A stretch of 64,000 bases of DNA from Diacronema lutheri (lineage: Eukaryota > Haptophyta > Pavlovophyceae > Pavlovales > Pavlovaceae). This document shows, in pieces, positions 3,001 to 64,000 of the stretch. The notes under the pieces were generated by a model. It did not search any database and had not been told where the DNA came from. It saw only the letters and a list, made by a program, of their open reading frames with translations. Numbering within the stretch: the stretch's first letter is position 1; each line of letters starts with the position of its first letter. The stretch is taken from assembly GCA_019448385.1 (NCBI GenBank), contig JAGTXO010000005.1, positions 1,302,001 to 1,366,000 on the forward strand. The letters run 5' to 3'. The position numbers and the translations under genes were made by a program.

Positions 3001-4399
3001 GGACTTTCAGCTGATCGCGCAGCCGGAGCAGCCGGACCGCGCCGCACAGCTCGGCGCGCCGGCGCCCGGCGGCGCCGGCGTGCCGTCCGCGCCGCCGCAC
3101 TCGTCGACGCCGGCGCGCGCGCCCACGTGCGTGGCGGGCGGCATCTCGTCGGCGGAGGCATCGTCGAGTTTCTACTTGTGCATGGGGCACTCGTTCCACC
3201 TGCTGCAGCTCAAGGCGAAGGAAGACGGCGTGCACGCGGACATCAGCGTTACCATGTACCGCAAGAAGCGCGCCGAGCAGCAGCTGCAGTGCGCGTACGC
3301 GTGCCACGTGTGCGGCGCCGACCACGACGGTTATGAGCCGCACGCTGCGACCTTCCGCTCGCGCCAGGGCGCGCTCTTCAACTGGAACCACCTCGACTTC
3401 ATGGTTGCCGGCTGGATCGCGTGGGGCGAGCACGAATGGATGGAGAGCCGCGTCGTCGCCTTCGTCCTCCTCTCGCGCGAGGGCGGGCGGCGCGCCAACG
3501 GTGCGGCGCGCGGCGACGCGCCGCTGTCGTCGCACCCGACCGACGCGGCTGGCGCGCGCACCGAGAGCGCGGCCGGCGGGGAGGAGGAGGAGGACGACGC
3601 GCTGCGCTCCATCGCGCTCGAGCCCGACGCCTTCCGCAAGTTTGTGCTCGGCATCGAGTCGCGGGTCGGCGTGGCGCGCGACGTTGCGATCAGCGACGCG
3701 CGGGCGCCATCGCTCAGCGTCCGGTCGCGCGCGCCGGCCGCCACCACGTCGCCTGCCGCACCGGGCGCGCGCGCGGCGGGTGCGGCGCGTGAGAAGCTCG
3801 CTCAGACGCTCACGTCCGAGGGCGCCGACGGGCGCGCGCTGAGCACCGTCGTCGAGATGGACCGGCAGATGGTGCCGTGGAGGGCATGGCGGCTCGCGTT
3901 TCGATGGCGGCTATCGGTTGGCGTGACGGTCGACGAGCTGCTCGCCTTCCTTCGGCGCAAGGCGCTGAATGCGGACGCGCGGCTCGTGCAGGTGCCCGCC
4001 GGCGACACGCACGTGCGTAGCGGCCGCGCGATGGGCGGCCCGTTCTCGCCCCCCTTCATCGTGCCGTGCGCGCACGACGTGCTGCCGTACGCGCTGCGCG
4101 CGCTCACGTCGGCGCACGGCGGCTTCGACTTTGTGCTCGAGCGCGAGGGCGAGCTGGGGCCCGGCGGGCCAGGTGCGCGCTACGTGCAGCGCAAGGGCAT
4201 CGCCCTCGTCGAGGTGCGCGACGCGCGCTTTGCGTGGGTGAGCAACGCGCTGCACGCGCCGTCGGGTGACGAAGGCGGCAGCAAGGGCGGCGGCGGCAAG
4301 GTGCGCTCGTCGCTCGAGATGCTCGCAGACTTTCGGCGGCTTGTCGCGCTCGAGCACCAGCGCAGGCAGCCGCCCACGTCCCTGCGAGAGGTGGCGTAG
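2..4399 (+). CDS. DEPDC5: Iml1/DEPDC5-like GATOR1 subunit, 5' partial
   Basis: The 1,465 visible codons run in one frame without an intron to TAG at 4397-4399 and continue off the left edge; the first visible codon is TTG, so the true start is outside. In other eukaryotes Iml1/DEPDC5 is the GATOR1 subunit that contacts Rag GTPases and restrains TORC1 at the lysosome or vacuole when amino acids are scarce. The N-terminal part shows the Iml1 domain: GELYFEKMVAFVSRLL and VTHSLTLVLFARR at the start, then SKTGQQIVLVSPSSGYFE and GCDLVCLGRPPRHTVPL near residues 180-230. The C-terminal third has YLCMGHSFHLLQL, FNWNHLDFMVAGW and a likely DEP-type region near residues 1290-1350. The middle is low-complexity Ala/Gly/Pro/Ser/His insertion. 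The last nine codons lie inside a perfect palindrome. Family assignment is firm; the length is slightly short of the usual 1,550-1,600 because of truncation. Confidence 0.88.
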   Translation: MAAESYTFADDGELYFEKMVAFVSRLLAEWTRRGVTHSLTLVLFARRVRPAGGAGGGEGEPTDLFKVVCDRKTLVDWTQLVRLLKAEVLRFLPCAQWRAGVGGAAAADGASGCARAGERSAPGSPLVGAASAAPRASAWSTGARVNLSSAACGNLVEALNLSLDAIEEPFLNRELSKTGQQIVLVSPSSGYFECPAELLRLTSARMEASGTGCDLVCLGRPPRHTVPLILATVRAQGKEGGSSGGSASGPSSPLLGPTAAAHVAHATVPTGGTCSGGGGGGGGGGATPAGNGGRLGFELHSPDWLNTMFTDPPLPFNPAASRAVAAVTSANTLDLSRASEDGERGGDRGGGDRDDGHVPHALRGCADGSPPHARRARTLVWPLATRQPCEPPHGAELIDTAQSDVGMFTRACAAGASATVAAAAVAAAALAEGRLCEMPAGARRVPLLVGRTWPAMTAHAAAPIFRQAEHTHTDDRGREACGPGGTPSPQPSGMRRNGSHRFYCAGAGGGSGGLNAAVAGGGVPYSRSATFLPLDLLPPSTPPLPPFGAAAAAAAVAAGAAAGGGGRSRHAAPAGPGACAPHAMLTAAAGACDFARRRDEGACGGLDGSEGALLCFAENALGASVEPSLLAALEHGAQGGGPPASWQHGRLAAPTANASTRTTAQPHETGAAGRMHGLCTGAMCMSALAAGGGSSPETSAPSIGSASSTSLTEQLASADACAAASPPGAQAEHATARPRAGSLVACYPPPVSSRCSRGAGSYSSGGLFAPAGAAPVLPAAAGQPAHAHQPLPHLPTHRGLLAPVPNAERVSVAVRGLPNGGGAGCGGACTASAPLNMDSGWCAKPCGAPHVNPITPSPSSSHLHSLIYAHKSAHSGLLREPTAHSCLSADACVPFNPLESQPAPAGRLEPKGGARAVTARQWLHVVSSSLYSPSERMWLSLCEPALLPLRTDEVPPLLVHEDLSFDLASHTVDSSLLQPPRRGAEVRALLDELICQRLEQDFQLIAQPEQPDRAAQLGAPAPGGAGVPSAPPHSSTPARAPTCVAGGISSAEASSSFYLCMGHSFHLLQLKAKEDGVHADISVTMYRKKRAEQQLQCAYACHVCGADHDGYEPHAATFRSRQGALFNWNHLDFMVAGWIAWGEHEWMESRVVAFVLLSREGGRRANGAARGDAPLSSHPTDAAGARTESAAGGEEEEDDALRSIALEPDAFRKFVLGIESRVGVARDVAISDARAPSLSVRSRAPAATTSPAAPGARAAGAAREKLAQTLTSEGADGRALSTVVEMDRQMVPWRAWRLAFRWRLSVGVTVDELLAFLRRKALNADARLVQVPAGDTHVRSGRAMGGPFSPPFIVPCAHDVLPYALRALTSAHGGFDFVLEREGELGPGGPGARYVQRKGIALVEVRDARFAWVSNALHAPSGDEGGSKGGGGKVRSSLEMLADFRRLVALEHQRRQPPTSLREVA

Positions 4400-4766
4400 T
4401 CTCACGCTGAGACCTGCACCCATGCAGTTCACGTGCGCGATGAACTCCCCCCCCGGTCGATGAGCGATTACTACAACCGGTTTGGCACGGCTACGCAGCG
4501 AGTTGCTAGAGTGCGGGTCGCATTTTGTTGAGATAAAGTAGCAGACTATACGAGGCAGCTACCCCGACGTCGGGGTAGCTGCCTCGTATAGTCTGCTACT
4601 TTATCTCAACAAAATGCGACCCGCACTCTAGCAACTCGCTGCGTAGCCGTGCCAAACCGGTTGTAGTAATCGCTCATCGACCGGGGGGGGAGTTCATCGC
4701 GCACGTGAACTGCATGGGTGCAGGTCTCAGCGTGAGACTACGCCACCTCTCGCAGGGACGTGGGCG
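4371..4766. repeat. Perfect 396-bp palindrome
   Basis: The two 198-base arms, 4371-4568 and 4569-4766, are exact reverse complements with no spacer; the centre is GACGTC. The match even includes the eight-base C and G runs and ends at the next base on both sides. The left arm starts within the last nine codons of the Iml1-like gene, so a reversed copy of that gene's 3' end lies in the right arm. It could be a real inverted duplication or a fold-back sequencing or assembly artefact. Confidence 0.95.
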
Positions 4767-18582: not shown

Positions 18583-21153
18583 ATGCTGTGGCTCGCCGTG
18601 CTCGGCCTCGCGGTGGATCCGGCCGGCGCGCGCTCTGTGGCGCGCGGCAGGGCGGCGTGGCCCGCGCGGCGCGCGGCCGTACGCGCCGCCCTTAGCGTGC
18701 CGCCCGAGCTCGGCGCGGCGTATGCGCAGGCGGCGGCGAGCGGCTCGACGCTGTGGCGCGAGCTGCTGCAGACGCGCGTCGGGACGCCAAACCTGGCCGA
18801 CATGTTGCTGCCCGCGCCGCAGCTGCCGGTGTTCGCGCAGCTCGGCCCGGCGGTCTCCGGCGCGATCGCCGCGCTTGGCTTTGCCGCCGTCAGCCTTGTG
18901 CTGCTCGCCGACACGCGGCTCGAGACCCCGTACCCATCCGGTCGGTACGACGCAAAGGAGGCGGACCTCTACTTTGCGGAGCGGCCGGGCGCGCTACTCG
19001 TGCGTTCGCTCGACCTGCTCCGCCTCGGCCTGCGCTTTGGCATCGCGCTCTTCATTGACTGGCGCTTCGACGCCCTCGAGAGGAACGAGAAGCAGCGTGC
19101 GACGGAGCTGGTCGTGCTGCTCACGCGGTGCGGCGCAACGTTCATCAAGATTGGCCAGGCCCTCTCGATCCGGAGCGACCTGCTCGCGCCAGCGTACATC
19201 GCGGCGCTGTCGCAGCTGCAGGACCGCGTGCCCCCTTTTTCCAACGAGGTCGCCTTCGACATGATCCGCGCCGAGCTCGGCCTGCCCGCGCCGCCGCCGG
19301 GCGCGAGCTCAGCGGAGGTGCCGTCTGCTTTCTCGTCCCTCTCCGCTCAGCCCGTCGCGGCCGCGAGTCTCGGGCAGGTGTACCGCGGCACGGTGCGCGA
19401 GACGGGGGTTGAGGTGGCGGTCAAGGTGCAGCGCCCCGGCGTCCTCGAGGCGATCGCGATGGACATGTACCTGATCCGTGGCGCCGCGGGCCTCGCGAAG
19501 CGCGTCTTCCCGTGGATCAACACCGACCTCGTCGGTGCGGTCGACGAGTGGGGGCTGCGTTTCGTCGATGAGCTGGATTACGAGATGGAGGCGCAAGCGG
19601 CGATGTCCTTCCGTGACGAGATTGGCAAGACGCCGCTCGCCAGCGTCGTCTGCGCGCCGCTGCCCGTGCTGCCGCTCTCGTCGCGCCGCGTGCTGACCGC
19701 CGAGTGGGTGAACGGTGTGCGGCTGGACAATGCACAAAACACAAAAGGGGACATTGGCAGGCTGTGCGCGGTGGCGCTCACGGCATACTTGACGATGCTC
19801 CTCGAGACCGGCGTGCTGCACTGCGACGCTCATCCGGGCAACCTGCTGCGCACAGACGATGGCCGACTGTGCATCCTCGACTGGGGCCTCGTGACCGCTG
19901 TCGATGGCGAGCTGCAGATCTCCTTCCTCGAGCACATCGCGCACCTCACCTCGCGCGACTACGACGCAATCCCGGCGGACCTTGTGCGCCTCGGCTTCGT
20001 GCCCGCGGGCAAGGAGGACGCGATTGCGCAGGCGGGCGTCGCGCAGGTCCTCGCGCAGCTCTACGAGCAGCTCGCGGGCGGCGGCGGCGCCAAGAAGATC
20101 GACGTGGGCGAGGTGGGACGCACGCTCACGGGGCTGACGCAGTCGTACGGCAACCTGTTCCAGATCCCGCCCTACTTCCTCTACATCCTGCGCGCCTTCA
20201 CCGTCCTCGAGGGCATCGGACTGCAGAACGACCCGGACTATTCGATCATCGATGCGTGCCTCCCGTACATCACGCGCAGGCTCGTCACCGACCAGTCGCC
20301 GCGCTCGCGCGCGGCGCTGCGCTCCTTCGTCTCGTCGCAGGCGGCGAGCGGCGCGGGCAGGCAGATTGACACGCGCCGCGCGCAGCAGCTCGTCGGCGGG
20401 CTGAGCGGTTATGCGTCCGCGACGCGCGGCGTGAATGCGTCGGGCACGAGCGAGGAGGAGGACGCGGTCGCGATCGGCGCGCGGCTGCTCCTCGACGAGC
20501 GTGGCAACCCGGTGCAGGCGCTCCTCCTCGAGGAGGCCGCGCGCGTCGTGGACGCCGTGCTGCGCGACTACGCCGGCACCGTCTCGTCGATGCTCGAGCG
20601 CGCCGGACCCGCCGCGCGCGCGCTCGACCCGCTCGGCGCGTGGGGCGTCGCCAAGCGGATGCTCGCGAAGGAGGAGGAGGACGAGGAGGTGCTGCGCACC
20701 GTGCGCTCGCTGCTGCTCGGCGCCGCGCCGCCGCAGGCCGGCGCGCCGGCGCGCGCACTGCCTGGCGCGCAGCCCGCAGGCGCGCTCGCGACCGCCGGCC
20801 GGCTTGTCGACGGTTCGGAGCCTCCGCGCGCGCCCACCCCAGCCGCGCTGCGCGCCGCGCTCGACGAGATCGACCCCGAGCTGCGGCGCAAGCTCGCGCG
20901 CCACGTGTGGGAGCAGCGCGCCGGCGCGCCGGCGCTCGCCACGCGGCTCGCCGCGCGCATGCTGCTGCGTGCCTCGGAGCGGCTCGGCCGGCTGAGCGCA
21001 CCCGGCGTGGCCGACGGGCAGGTGCGCGACGAGGTCTTCATCGCGATCGCCTCGGTCGGCAAGGCGGCGACCACGCTCACCGCCGCGCAGCTCGATGCGC
21101 TCGGCCGCCCCGCGAATTCGGAGCACGCGCCGGACGAGCGCGCGCAACGCTGA
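18583..21153 (+). CDS. Second ABC1 atypical kinase (ABC1K paralogue)
   Basis: An intronless 856-residue ABC1/UbiB kinase. The N-terminus MLWLAVLGLAVDPAGARS is signal-like, followed by a basic stretch, again consistent with plastid import. Motifs: FIKIGQALSIRSDLL (about residue 186), AAASLGQVYRG, VAVKVQRP (about 276), DELDYEMEA (ExD), LHCDAHPGNLL (about 413) and LDWGLV. The core aligns block for block with the ABC1K at 8942-11914, including the tail segments FQIPPYFLYILRAFTVLEGI and DYSIIDACLPYITRRL. The other copy has an intron and a longer tail. The role is probably regulation of plastid quinone or tocopherol metabolism; the substrate cannot be read from sequence. Confidence 0.88.
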   Translation: MLWLAVLGLAVDPAGARSVARGRAAWPARRAAVRAALSVPPELGAAYAQAAASGSTLWRELLQTRVGTPNLADMLLPAPQLPVFAQLGPAVSGAIAALGFAAVSLVLLADTRLETPYPSGRYDAKEADLYFAERPGALLVRSLDLLRLGLRFGIALFIDWRFDALERNEKQRATELVVLLTRCGATFIKIGQALSIRSDLLAPAYIAALSQLQDRVPPFSNEVAFDMIRAELGLPAPPPGASSAEVPSAFSSLSAQPVAAASLGQVYRGTVRETGVEVAVKVQRPGVLEAIAMDMYLIRGAAGLAKRVFPWINTDLVGAVDEWGLRFVDELDYEMEAQAAMSFRDEIGKTPLASVVCAPLPVLPLSSRRVLTAEWVNGVRLDNAQNTKGDIGRLCAVALTAYLTMLLETGVLHCDAHPGNLLRTDDGRLCILDWGLVTAVDGELQISFLEHIAHLTSRDYDAIPADLVRLGFVPAGKEDAIAQAGVAQVLAQLYEQLAGGGGAKKIDVGEVGRTLTGLTQSYGNLFQIPPYFLYILRAFTVLEGIGLQNDPDYSIIDACLPYITRRLVTDQSPRSRAALRSFVSSQAASGAGRQIDTRRAQQLVGGLSGYASATRGVNASGTSEEEDAVAIGARLLLDERGNPVQALLLEEAARVVDAVLRDYAGTVSSMLERAGPAARALDPLGAWGVAKRMLAKEEEDEEVLRTVRSLLLGAAPPQAGAPARALPGAQPAGALATAGRLVDGSEPPRAPTPAALRAALDEIDPELRRKLARHVWEQRAGAPALATRLAARMLLRASERLGRLSAPGVADGQVRDEVFIAIASVGKAATTLTAAQLDALGRPANSEHAPDERAQR

Positions 21154-59864: not shown

Positions 59865-60163
59865 TCAGTCAGTCATGCATTGTGCCCAGCTGATTGTGCC
59901 ATCCCCAAGCGTGGCTGGTTGCTTCCTCTCAGCGTCCCGCCCGTCGCGTGGCGGCGCAATGCTGAGGACCGAGCGCGCCTTGAGCGGCATGCAGAACAGG
60001 ACGCCGTCCACTTCGACGCCGCCTTCCCACTTGTTCAACCCCACGAGCGGACCGCATGGCTGGATTGTTGAGACTTCGCCCGTCTCCGGCACGACGCGAA
60101 GGATGGATTCGGCCTGTCGACGCGGCGCGGAGGGAGGCTGGTCAACGTGCGTACGGGGTAACA

Positions 60164-60200
<37 letters not shown>

Positions 60201-61314
60201 GGGGGGGGCGCACTTTGAGCGGGATGCCATAGACGCAGCCGTCCAGGCCGAGGAAGCCGTTCTGCCATTTGTTCTGCTCAATCCGCTCCATGGCGCGCAG
60301 CGAGCCGCCGATCGTGTGCGCGCTGCCCGTCTCAGTGTCGATGCGCAGGACGAAATCCGCATCGCTCGGGAAGCAGATGATTGAGCCGTCGCGCGCGAGC
60401 ACCGCGCCCAAATATTTGTATTTGCCATCGGTCCGGTGCTGCCCGCTGAGGATCGGACCGCTGATCTGGACTGCGATGTCCTCGCCGTCCACGCCGCCTC
60501 CTGGCACGATGCGCAGCAGCGTATCCGCGTTGGCAGGGATGCCCCACACGCAGCCGTCCGGTGCGACGACGCCACCGTGCCATTTGTACCCGCCCTGCAC
60601 GCGCGCGCGGCGGGTCGGGCGTGCGCGCGGGGTTGGGCGCGCGCGCGGCGGGTTGGGCGCGCGCGCGACCACGCGCACCGGCGAAAAGGAGCCGACCAGC
60701 GAGACGGTCGCCGACGCGCCATGCGGCACAATCTTCAAGCACGCGCTCGCATTTGTCGGCACGCCCCAGATCGCGCCGTCGGGCGAGCGCAGCCCGCCGT
60801 ACCACTTGTTGTGCATCGCGCCGAGCGACGGCCCGATGAGCGAGGTCGTGTCCGACGTCGCATCGATGCGCAGCACGCGCTCGGCCTTTTGCGGGATGCA
60901 GAAGACCGAGCAGCCGTCCGCCGCGACCACGGCACCGTGCCATTTGAATAGACCCGCGTACGAGTCGCCGATCAGCGCCACCTCGCCCGTGGACGTGTCA
61001 ATCTTTAGCACGCGCTCGTGATGGCACGGGATGCAATAGATCTTGTGCCCGCAACGCACGCCGCGCAGCCACTTGAATGATCCGCGCCACGCCGGGCCGA
61101 TCGTGACGACCTCGCCAGTCTTGGGCACGATCTTGAGCACGCGAGGCGCCTTGCCCGGGACGGCGTAGACGCAGCCGTCGGCCCCCAGAACGCCTCCCAA
61201 GTACTTCTCGCTGCCCGCCACGTGCCCGAGAAGCTCGCACTCCACCCCGTGCGCCGGCTTGGCGCCCGGCGCCGGACTTGTGCCCGACGACAGGCTCGCG
61301 CCCGACGTCGGCAT
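59865..61314 (-). CDS. Eight-repeat beta-propeller-like protein
   Basis: Exons 61314-60679, 60594-60214 and 60113-59865 (421 residues). Introns are 84 bases (GTGCGC to GTGCAG) and 100 bases (GTGCGC to CGACAG, with a long C run). After a 25-residue Ser/Ala leader there are eight repeats of about 40-45 residues: [YF]KWxGGVxxxDGxVxxIPxxAxxVLRIxPxTGEVxxIG. Examples are YLGGVLGADGCVYAVPGKAP and HGGVVAPDGCVWGIPANADT. The pattern resembles lyase/NHL/SMP-30-type propeller blades, and eight repeats would close one ring. No catalytic residues can be named, so the role (sugar or lactone binding, or scaffold) is open. Both introns fall between or inside blades without breaking them. It is divergent from the oxygenase gene by 15 bases. 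Confidence 0.78.
60167..60209. repeat. 33-base G run in intron 2 of the propeller gene
   Basis: An uninterrupted run of about 33 G, one T and eight more G on the plus strand, which is poly-C on the transcribed strand just after the GTGCGC donor. Such runs are quadruplex-prone and error-prone in sequencing, so the exact length is uncertain. Confidence 0.85.
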
Positions 61315-61329
61315 CGCCCACCGTCCACG
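61315..61329. promoter_or_regulatory. 15-bp gap between divergent start codons
   Basis: The propeller ATG (61314, minus) and the oxygenase ATG (61330, plus) are separated by 15 bases, so each transcript must begin inside the other gene's coding region or one true start is internal. No motif can be named in so short a stretch. Confidence 0.4.
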
Positions 61330-62376
61330 ATGGCGGCCCACGAGACCCACGACCTCGACAGCCTGCTCGACGAGGATGTTCTCCGCGCGCTGAGCGGGGC
61401 GGGCGCCTTCTCGGTGCGGCTGCCCAACGAGCTCGTTGCACTCAACGCTGAAGTGCTGCGCTGGTTTGGCCTCTTCGACGCGCAGCCGTCCGAGCGCAAG
61501 CAGCGCCACGCGCTCGTGCCCGACGGAACAGGCGAGAACAACGGATGGCACGGCCCGGGCGGGCTGAGCGCGTACAACCGCTTCCGTGACGGCTACATCT
61601 TCCAAGCGAGCGAGCCCATTTGGTCCATGCTCGACGGATCGGCCGGCGCCGAGTTTGCCGCGGCGCACGAGCGGTGGCGCGCTGCGCTGCACGCCGTTGG
61701 CCACGCGCTCATCGCGCGGCTGGCGCGCGCGCTCGAGGTGGGCGCGGATCAGTTTGGGCCAGGCGGCCGGTGCGACATTGCCGCCGGCGCGCAGTTCCAC
61801 CTCAAGGCAATCCGTGCGGCCGCGTCCGAGCTCTGCGCGCCCGGCGCGACCGGCGCAACCGCGGATGGGCGCATGATGACACTGCCCGCGCACCGCGACC
61901 CGTCGGTGCTCAGCCTTGTCGTCGCGACGCGCCCGGGCTTGCAGCTGCTCGTCGAGGGAGAGGGGCGGTACGAGGATGTGCCGCGCTGCGGTCCCGACGT
62001 GTGCACCGTGATCGCCGGCCAGCTGCTCACCAAGCTCACGCGCGGCCTCGTGCGCAGCCCGCTGCACCGCGTTGTCTCGGAGCCGCGAGAAGCCGTGTGC
62101 GCCGAGCGCGTCGCGGCCACTTTCTTCTTCCAGCCGCCGCTCGACGCCGTGCTGCAGCCGCTCGAATCGCCGACGATGGCCCGCCTTGCGCGCCTCGCCG
62201 ACGCAAGCCCGGAGCGCAGCGCTCGTGCGCACACCAAGGTGCGCGCGGGAGGTGAGCGCGGCAACGGCAAGCCCTTTCTCCCGGTCACCTATCGCGAGTG
62301 GAAGCATCGCGCCTACAGCGGTTATTACGCGCGCGCCGCGGCCAGCGCCGGCGCCGCCCGCCTTGACAGCGCGTAA
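61330..62376 (+). CDS. 2-oxoglutarate/Fe(II)-dependent oxygenase (IPNS-like)
   Basis: One exon, 348 residues from ATG 61330 (MAAHETHDLDSLLDEDVLRA). The fold is the isopenicillin-N-synthase/plant 2OGD type, which hydroxylates or desaturates small molecules. The N-terminal region is shortened. The iron triad reads H-x-D in LPAHRDPSVLSLVV (about residue 188) with the distal His in VRSPLHRVVSEP (about 244); the Arg of AERVAATFFFQP would bind 2-oxoglutarate, in place of the usual RxS. RPGLQLLVEGEGRYEDVP is the core strand after HxD. YSAYNRF-type substrate pockets (GLSAYNRFRDGYIFQ) are seen at about 77-92. There is no signal peptide. The substrate is not predictable. Confidence 0.83.
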   Translation: MAAHETHDLDSLLDEDVLRALSGAGAFSVRLPNELVALNAEVLRWFGLFDAQPSERKQRHALVPDGTGENNGWHGPGGLSAYNRFRDGYIFQASEPIWSMLDGSAGAEFAAAHERWRAALHAVGHALIARLARALEVGADQFGPGGRCDIAAGAQFHLKAIRAAASELCAPGATGATADGRMMTLPAHRDPSVLSLVVATRPGLQLLVEGEGRYEDVPRCGPDVCTVIAGQLLTKLTRGLVRSPLHRVVSEPREAVCAERVAATFFFQPPLDAVLQPLESPTMARLARLADASPERSARAHTKVRAGGERGNGKPFLPVTYREWKHRAYSGYYARAAASAGAARLDSA

Positions 62377-62797
62377 AAGTGCTTTTGGAAGTATAGATGG
62401 TCAAGCCAAATCCGATCAGGGGCACGATCGAGCGCCCCGAGTGCAGCGCGGGCCATTCGGAAGGACGTCCTTGTGAGGGAGCTCTTCGCGTTTGGCGAGC
62501 GGGGGAGCACGACGCGCAGCGTTGCTGCGGCGGCGTGCGGGCGGCGAGCAGCGGTCGGGCTGCTCGCGACGAGGCCGGAGCAGACGGCGCCGTGGCCGCC
62601 GGCGCAGGTGACGCGCGCCGACGAGCCGTAGCGAGCGTCCGTGATCCGCACGGCGGTTGGAGCGGGCCGGCTGGTGCGGCGCGCTCGGCCACGGGTGGCG
62701 GCGTGCACGGGCGTGCCGAATGCGGTACGCGTCGCCAGCCGCGCGCGACCTGGGCAGAGCCCGCAAAGCGTCGACCGCTGCGCGGCTCGGCCGTGCG
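62377..62797. other. Non-coding region downstream of the Fanzor-like gene
   Basis: About 420 bases between the oxygenase stop and the Fanzor-like stop. Short self-complementary pieces occur: GGGGC...GCCCC (62419-62438) and AAGGACGTCCTT (62461-62472). In characterised Fanzor and TnpB loci the guide (omega) RNA overlaps the 3' end of the nuclease gene and runs into this position, so this is where one would lie; no guide is demonstrated. Confidence 0.35.
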
Positions 62798-64000
62798 TCA
62801 ACGCCGGCCGCGCTTCGGCCCGCGCGCGCTGCCGCCGCCGGCACTGGCGCTGGCAGCTCCGCGGGCGGGGGTGCGGGCGCGAGCGCCGCCGCCGCCACCG
62901 CCGCCGCGCCCGCCGCCGTCGTCGCCACCGCCGTCGCCGCCGCCGCCTCCCCCGCCGTCATCGTCGTCGTCGCCGCCGCCGCCTCCGTCGCCGTCGCCGT
63001 CGCCGTCGCCCTCGCCGCCGCCGCCGTCGCCGCTGGCGTCGTCGTCGTCGTCGTCGTCGCCCTCGTCGTCGCCCTCGTCGCCGCCGTCGCCCTCGTCGTC
63101 GCAGTCGTCGCCCTCGCCGTGCACCATGCGCTCCTCACGCTCCCACACCTCGCCGCGCGCCCACCAGGCGAGCACGAGGGCAAAGCGCTCAGGCGTCGAC
63201 GTGGTGTCGCGCCCGGCCGCGCGCGCCGCAATGTCGTGCACGTCGTAGAAGATGTTGCGCGCGGCGTTGTAGTCGCGGTGCACGGGCTTCTTGCCGCCGT
63301 TGCACGCCGGGCAGATGACGAGCGCGTGCACCGTGCGCGTGCCGCCCTTTGCCACGGGCAGGCGCGGGTTCTGCGCGAGCTCCGCGCCGCAGCGCTGCAG
63401 CCTGCCGCCCTTGGCGAGCCGCGGCATCGAGCAGTGCATCGACGTGTACGGCTCGGGTACGAAGACGGCCGCGACGCCGCGCCGCCGCAGCTCGCGCAGC
63501 AGCCCCACCTGGAAGGCGGGCGGCGCGCCCTTGGGCTGCGCGCCCTTGTGGTCGTGCAGCCACTTGCCCACGCACACGAGCAGCCGGTCGCGCGTCACGC
63601 CGTCGACGCAGTGCGCCGCGATGAGCGCCTCGGCGACGCGCGCCGCGTTGGACCGCCCGCCGCTGTCGCGCCGCCAGCGCTCCTTGCGGCGCGCCGGCGC
63701 GTCGTACACGTGCTCGGCGGCGCGCTCGCGCACCCGCGCGCTCTCGCGGTGGAAGGCGATGTATTTGCCCGCGTCGAGCACCTTGGCGCTGTGCGCCTCG
63801 CCAAGCCGCGCCTCGTCCGCCTCCACGCTGAACTCCTCGCCGCGCCCGTCGGTGCGCACGCGCCGCCGCGCCGCGTTGGTCTTGGCCGTCTCGCGCGCAA
63901 AGCCCGCGGCGCGCGCGCGCGCGCGCTGCGTGAACTGCCGCCAGACGGCCGCCCGCCCGACGTGCGCAGAGTAGGTGGTGATGTTGCCCATGTTCGGATC
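62798..64000 (-). CDS. Fanzor/TnpB-like RNA-guided nuclease homologue, 5' partial
   Basis: The frame enters from the right edge and ends at TGA 62798 (400 codons visible). It begins DPNMGNITTYS, which fits the RuvC-I motif (DPGxxN) with its Asp at 63998-64000. RuvC-II is VAAVFVPEPYTSMHCS with the Glu at 63452-63454, after the arginine-rich bridge (RRKERWRRDSG) and LLVCVGKWLHDHKG. A zinc-finger pattern follows (HC..., RCG, then ICPACNGGKK) and RuvC-III is KPVHRDYNAARNIFYDV with its Asp at 63272-63274. This order is that of TnpB/Fanzor, the transposon-encoded ancestors of Cas12. All three acidic residues are present and there is no stop, so it may be active. The N-terminal wedge and REC part lie outside the window. 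The last 110 residues are an Asp/Gly-rich tail, unusual for the family. I cannot tell Fanzor1 from Fanzor2 securely. Confidence 0.75.
   Translation of the reverse strand, partial: DPNMGNITTYSAHVGRAAVWRQFTQRARARAAGFARETAKTNAARRRVRTDGRGEEFSVEADEARLGEAHSAKVLDAGKYIAFHRESARVRERAAEHVYDAPARRKERWRRDSGGRSNAARVAEALIAAHCVDGVTRDRLLVCVGKWLHDHKGAQPKGAPPAFQVGLLRELRRRGVAAVFVPEPYTSMHCSMPRLAKGGRLQRCGAELAQNPRLPVAKGGTRTVHALVICPACNGGKKPVHRDYNAARNIFYDVHDIAARAAGRDTTSTPERFALVLAWWARGEVWEREERMVHGEGDDCDDEGDGGDEGDDEGDDDDDDDASGDGGGGEGDGDGDGDGGGGGDDDDDGGGGGGGDGGGDDGGGRGGGGGGGARARTPARGAASASAGGGSARGPKRGRR
62880..63118. repeat. GCC/GTC triplet-rich tract encoding an acidic Asp/Gly tail
   Basis: About 240 bases of imperfect GTC/GCC triplets on the plus strand, read on the minus strand as runs of Asp and Gly in the C-terminus of the Fanzor-like protein. 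Low-complexity triplet expansion is common in this window. It keeps the frame open in all three phases. Confidence 0.85.

Follow-up and report, generated by a model that had tools for sequence, protein, structure and literature searches.

At the right end of the window analysed here (a stretch of 64,000 nucleotides from Diacronema lutheri, contig JAGTXO010000005.1, positions 1,302,001 to 1,366,000), the minus strand carries a stop-free frame of 400 codons (62798–64000 (−)) that continues off the window's right edge, as described in an earlier note made from the letters alone. That note read the frame as a Fanzor-type nuclease homologue, and the residues that it named are real and stand in TnpB/Fanzor order: the first Asp of a putative RuvC triad in DPNMGN (residue 1 of the window part, 63998–64000 (−)), a putative triad Glu in VPEPYTS (residue 183, 63452–63454 (−)), six residues ahead of the first Cys, and a putative last Asp in HRDYNAARN (RD at residues 242–243, with the D at 63272–63274 (−)). 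Their spacing agrees with the published TnpB/Fanzor signature D-X(125,275)-[TS][TS]xx-zinc site-RD (PMC3627910), the motif D-X(125,275)-[TS][TS]xxC...RD being matched with 185 residues from D to TS, the sequence TSMHC and RD at residue 242. The part from the RuvC I Asp to the stop codon ends in an Asp/Gly-rich tail of approximately 106 residues from GEGDD (62801–63118 (−)), close to the 110 or so estimated earlier and within the frame of all 19 scorable copies among 20 loci examined.

Agreement with the Fanzor fingerprint, which comprises DPG, a Glu at the alternative (Ealt) place and two CxxC knuckles (PMC10711439), is partial. The window copy has DPN at RuvC I where the fingerprint has DPG; the Ealt place is filled (E-PYTSMH-C), and the position aligned to the canonical Glu place is GKW at residue 145, which holds no Glu. 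Cysteines occur at residues 190, 204, 230 and 233. Those of C230-PA-C233 form a CxxC, bearing out the CPAC half of a zinc finger noted before, whereas C190 and C204 stand 14 residues apart and the first knuckle of the fingerprint is absent.

Pfam PF07282 (Cas12f1-like_TNB) recognises the window frame at 1.6e-6 and 28.6 bits, above its cut-off of 26.3, and NCBIfam guided_TnpB, a model built for prokaryotic TnpB, scores it at 0.014 and 14.7 bits, under its cut-off of 100. The single window sequence had no significant match among solved structures (best 0.26 and 0.38), and no characterised Fanzor1 was matched among them. We regard the frame as more than a chance one because its residues recur on the genome's contigs at at least 104 places with 97–100% identity (104 of 442 candidates scored). 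By sequence, the window protein is a relative of the TnpB/Fanzor superfamily, and a distant one given the low guided_TnpB score and the lack of a significant structure match. It appears to be a divergent Fanzor1-like protein that fails DPG and the first CxxC, and we do not claim full Fanzor1 membership for it. The proposed homology thereby holds for the superfamily, through the motif, PF07282 and Ealt, and does not extend to DPG and the first CxxC; that a GC-rich alga hosts a protein of this superfamily is supported.

A high-copy element of 21–31 kb

Beyond what the earlier note could see, the window end is the tail of a high-copy element of 21–31 kb that carries a chromodomain in the same frame. 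The assembly surveyed comprises 43,492,796 bases in 103 contigs, with a reported 73.25% GC and 22.9% repeats (PMC8379373, in whose main text the word stem 'transpos' is absent). Copy-to-copy similarity breaks off abruptly at window base 62391 and at C82:1385842, delimiting a window copy of 21,452 bp that extends to the right of the window and has its 3′ end inside it (62391–64000 (−)). The 3′ terminus, CTATAC (62391–62396 (−); GTATAG on the plus strand), is common to the copies and was found in 21 of 22 distinct flanks, the exception stopping at a contig end. At the other terminus, CTATATA(C/G) precedes GGCGCGG in 18 of 23 places read, with the window copy among the five deviants. No long terminal inverted repeat was seen.

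A 24-base pattern of the 5′ end and the terminal 22-mer of the 3′ end, each allowed up to two mismatches, matched the genome 248 and 221 times, respectively, and their reversed-pattern controls 0 times. Among the matches listed for contigs C1 to C43, 99 5′ ends and 88 3′ ends gave at least 61 end pairs within 40 kb, falling into size classes near 21.5, 26.2–26.9, 29.1–29.4 and 31.0 kb. With three overlapping or nested-looking pairs left out, 58 pairs cover at least 1.61 Mb, or 3.7% of the assembly; extrapolated to all 248 ends, the element would make up approximately 9% of the genome. High copy number is not in itself new, because Fanzor elements have already been reported at hundreds of copies in one host (PMC10711439).

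The copies sit in varied surroundings: 20 different 3′ flanks were found at the 21 places read, those on C68 and C69 sharing one. No motif was shared among the 5′ or 3′ flanks at the places read, including any candidate target-adjacent motif, and no target duplication was found in the five copies that were read on both sides (on C82, C27, C34, C101 and C21). CTAT was considered as a target motif and dropped; we count CTATATA as the element's own because it is absent at the joint in repeats without an insertion. At several insertions (5′ flanks of L036, L038, L043, L045 and L051, and also L022, L026 and L028), the element lies within a dispersed repeat or at its end; the repeat ends in a form of TAAGCGYCGTTAGTATA and is perhaps the end of another element.

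Ten contigs (C1, C3, C5, C10, C12, C14, C26, C29, C43 and C71) start or end within approximately 10 bases of the element's 3′ terminus, and C32 is the sole contig seen to start at the 5′ terminus. Such contig ends may have arisen in assembly or may be true ends of chromosomes. Elsewhere, C9 at both ends and C30 at its start terminate in (CCCCTA)n or (CCCTAA)n repeats.

Gene content and a predicted chromodomain–Fanzor protein

With genes listed in the order in which the Fanzor is read, the element holds pieces of a PIF1-like helicase in different frames (6.3e-19 and 2.1e-24), a ubiquitin-hydrolase-like (ubiquitin-protease-like) gene (1.8e-15) and two stretches whose codon-position GC pattern marks them as coding. 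The first of these is a single frame from 7.1 to approximately 19.19 kb, that is, some 12 kb or 4,000 codons, with a YqaJ match just below the cut-off (3.4e-4) and a chromodomain above it (PF00385 Chromo, 8.1e-14). The second, from approximately 19.3 to 21.04 kb, is the Fanzor frame; by copy comparison its exon starts outside the window at C82:1366525, equivalent to 64525 in window numbering (minus strand; element positions 19318–21042). Coding sequence for a putative N-terminal part does lie outside the window, as the earlier note had anticipated in pointing to an N-terminal part beyond the edge. A Ulp1-like protease guessed by eye in the large frame had no Pfam match, and that claim was dropped.

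The change of frame coincides with a 128-nt GT-AG stretch across which PLRTHN is joined in phase to VPRNVRL, and which is probably an intron joining the large frame to the Fanzor C-terminal half. In all 19 scorable copies the stretch is present and is followed by an exon that runs 574 or 575 codons to a shared stop (the locus left unscored, L012, begins too far in and duplicates L013; L016 and L021 have a common flank and may be a single copy). Upstream, 18 of the 19 have a frame that stays open as far as the locus extends, and L011 has a stop 411 codons upstream. From the chromodomain to where the Fanzor region begins there is no in-frame Met, the nearest ones preceding the chromodomain. Because of this frame and putative intron in the copies and the lack of an intervening Met, we predict a chromodomain–Fanzor protein of at least approximately 1,060 residues, or one of approximately 4,500.

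Alternatively, the Fanzor could be a separate protein with its own transcript start or splicing, the chromodomain then ending an upstream protein, so that no natural fusion would exist. Long open frames are common in GC-rich DNA, the fusion relies on one such stop-free frame, and Mets within the Fanzor region (from frame position 3823) could act as starts. Against this stand the Met-free interval, the codon-position GC pattern that continues through the junction, the openness of the frame in 18 of 19 copies and a second Fanzor family (below) that likewise sits in a longer frame, of at least 1,318 codons in L087, there with no chromodomain match. We consider separate translation somewhat improbable.

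In the 31-kb form, of which 19.8 kb were read, the helicase is preceded by a conserved 247-residue protein with no Pfam match that has five relatives on other contigs (53–73% identity in a protein search). This form, as seen in L051 and L052 (C4:20662–40461), also has a long coding frame of another kind ahead of the part that the size forms share. P0003, one of the element's own proteins, gave only a Dda-like helicase match in PHROGs (8.4e-4). In the parts of the element read, no transposase was found.

Relation to other mobile elements

Combining a helicase with these termini recalls the Chlamydomonas Helitron2 elements, in which Fanzor1 is already known (PMC3627910). An unusual rolling-circle transposon with Fanzor cargo would account for the PIF1 helicase, for an 18-base palindrome close to the 5′ end and a stretch resembling a hairpin close to the 3′ end, which parallel the palindromic stretches near Helitron2 ends, and for the shared absence of a terminal inverted repeat and of a target duplication in the five copies examined. 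However, the D. lutheri element is far larger and has no TTTT-like target motif, nor any other insertion motif at its flanks; neither the window copy nor the 19.8 kb covered of a 31-kb copy (which leaves approximately 11 kb) shows a convincing Rep/HUH pattern, and Helitron_like_N was found once genome-wide, on C63. We therefore judge a Helitron2-like origin unlikely, and do not accept a Helitron proper because no Rep was found in those same sequences, a verdict that is not final. The ends, CTATATA(C/G) and CTATAC, also differ from the 5′-TC...CTRR-3′ of Helitron1, and no target motif was seen in the flanks.

If the element were a linear replicon or an integrated virus attached at broken or natural chromosome ends, this would explain why target motif and duplication are lacking and why ten contigs end so near the 3′ terminus, and a helicase with a weak YqaJ-like nuclease would suit it. 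We find this improbable: the contig ends are possibly an assembly effect, no capsid or polymerase was matched among the pieces scanned with Pfam, and phage records held no relative of the 247-residue protein, the one protein searched there. Scans of IMG/VR with patterns for the Fanzor, the second family and the 247-residue family returned 0, 28 and 1 matches, respectively, of which none was confirmed as a viral relative, and a viral origin was set aside.

In size (>20 kb), number of accessory genes and copy number, the element resembles the KDZ elements of Ectocarpus and the Terminons of rotifers (PMC12477816, PMC6431247), the latter also located at chromosome ends (PMC6431247). It differs in that no reverse transcriptase or KDZ transposase was matched in the D. 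lutheri pieces scanned, and in having a Fanzor, a word absent from the main text of both sources.

A second Fanzor family in the same genome

A genome search with PF07282 ranked 31 places above the first full copy of the window family (150 of 306 candidates scored). The 15 of these that were read comprise eight members of a second Fanzor family (L073–L077, L080, L081 and L087), four variants of the window family (L078, L083, L085 and L086) and three places (L079, L082 and L084) in which the scan found no motif-bearing frame. Among the variants, L078 and L083 (on C49) have DQN at RuvC I and lack the stretch bearing the second cysteine, and L078 is also without the chromodomain and everything from there to the Fanzor C-terminal half.

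The second family is more typical than the window family: it keeps DPG and E-x6-CxxC, both of which the window family lacks, and it has no chromodomain match in its frame, at least in L087, where one frame of at least 1,318 codons (L087:46–3999 (−)) carries three repeats of approximately 95 residues upstream. What the two families have in common is a homologous C-terminal part and a location in a longer open frame. Profile-to-profile comparison aligned them at 93.4% and 2.4e-7, and with longer sequences at 93.2% and 3e-7, in both cases over the C-terminal part only, so that the N-terminal part sought in the earlier note has coding sequence and no significant similarity to this family. A joint profile of three sequences that combined the window family with the second one, the type of search that the note had suggested, matched Cas12f1 at 1.4e-5 and, weakly, the Guillardia Fanzor1 at 0.0085; the other five matches listed were superoxide dismutases at 0.33. 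Superfamily membership draws on these profile matches, together with the match between the two families. The second family aligned weakly to the Spizellomyces Fanzor (0.1), and a PDB search with its own profile returned no Fanzor at 0.1. Two protein searches for Fanzor relatives (best 8,000 candidates scored in each) yielded P0001, a 570-aa protein 94% identical whose contig has 2,435 bases; the first also gave a SAM-domain protein of D. lutheri with 11% of the query aligned.

Constraint, RNA and structure

Changes between copies were counted with the window copy as reference, and copies not aligning from the first base were dropped. The RuvC part shows 4 synonymous versus 3 amino-acid changes, a ratio of approximately 0.26 from small counts (11 of 13 other copies scored). 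Ahead of RuvC the figures are 8–10 versus 10–14 (15 of 18 copies scored), for the Fanzor N-terminal half 5–6 versus 19–20 (6 of 9 other copies scored) and for the tail 1 versus 4 (15 of 18 copies scored). Many of the compared copies are nearly identical and so do not count as independent. A hint of constraint is confined to the RuvC part, and the counts are too small for a firm statement.

These data bear on the possibility that the Fanzor is a true relative that is now inactive or drifting baggage, the element moving by other genes. DPN in place of DPG, the missing first CxxC, the many amino-acid changes outside RuvC between subfamilies and the loss of a cysteine-bearing stretch in L078 and L083 all point that way. 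Working against it are the RuvC ratio, small as its counts are, an exon that is unbroken in each of the 19 scorable copies and the D, E and D kept in the window copy, and we are doubtful of it.

Between the Fanzor stop codon and the terminus lies a right-end region of 407 nt (62391–62797 (−)), a candidate place for a guide RNA, which is 98.0–100% identical between compared copies. It folds no better than shuffled sequence (z −1.25; 13 of 100 shuffles as good), and a search of Rfam with it gave no relevant match. Structure predictions, at a pLDDT of 49.1, and of 37.9 for P0001 (pTM 0.27), were too poor to place the three acids or to judge a RuvC fold and a REC/WED lobe.

Discussion

On the element, its termini, copy number and domain order as observed here, and on superfamily membership by sequence, we postulate a recently multiplied giant element whose last domain is a Fanzor1-like RuvC nuclease within a chromodomain protein and is RNA-guided, a reading that we hold to have about an even chance of being right. 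The Fanzor would be the C-terminal part of a very large chromodomain protein, with a short intron inside the Fanzor region. RNA read from the element's right end into the copy-specific flank would act as guide and take the nuclease to a matching site without the element, where it may cut; repair of the break from an element-bearing copy would keep or spread the element. The chromodomain may hold the complex on marked chromatin. Cutting of the element-free site with repair copying the element back is a proposed role of TnpB and Fanzor (PMC10432273). That the nuclease gene lies at the extreme right end and is read towards the terminus, together with the varied flanks (20 different at 21 places), fits a flank-templated guide and is no proof of one. 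Counting against our preferred reading are DPN, the absent first CxxC, scant constraint outside RuvC, a right-end region with neither a better-than-shuffled fold nor a relevant Rfam match, the lack of a flank motif, second-family similarity that stops short of the N-terminal half, and the missing cysteine-bearing stretch in L083 and L078.

A bolder proposal, which we advance with low confidence, is that these copies represent a class of giant element that is new to the literature and has no known transposase, its RNA-guided nuclease being contained in a chromodomain protein of approximately 4,500 residues. The chromodomain would pick the chromatin and flank RNA the site, and through the nuclease the element would be retained and would spread over several per cent of the genome.

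Like Fanzor1 of eukaryotic transposons (PMC3627910, PMC10432273, PMC10711439), the window protein has the RuvC D-E-D, the alternative Glu place and a zinc region, and is housed in a transposon-like element. It differs from known Fanzor1 in DPN, the lack of a first CxxC, its Asp/Gly tail and a chromodomain upstream in frame, and its host element is 21–31 kb with no recognised transposase in the parts read. In the literature covered on Fanzor with chromodomains, polyproteins, haptophytes or giant transposons and on TnpB with chromodomains, including PMC6338049 and with most subscription papers outside it, there is no apparent description of such a protein and element.

If a chromodomain is indeed joined in nature to an RNA-guided nuclease, it would offer a new way of steering such enzymes to chromatin that would interest genome engineers. 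What Fanzors do for transposons also becomes testable with this element, whose numerous near-identical copies carry a potential guide each and lie together in one small algal genome.

Some minor observations concern the element and its neighbourhood. In L030, a 90-nt inverted repeat (4161–4250 and 4391–4480) lies within the element beside the helicase gene, its arms 93% complementary and 140 nt apart. In the window, positions 60142–61300 (−) hold a frame with repeats of the KWHGGVVAPDGCVWGIP kind (721-aa frame, no Pfam match), and 61222–62376 (+) a 2OG-Fe(II) oxygenase-like gene (PF03171, 4.6e-9) that ends 15 bases short of the element terminus, the element lying directly behind its stop codon.
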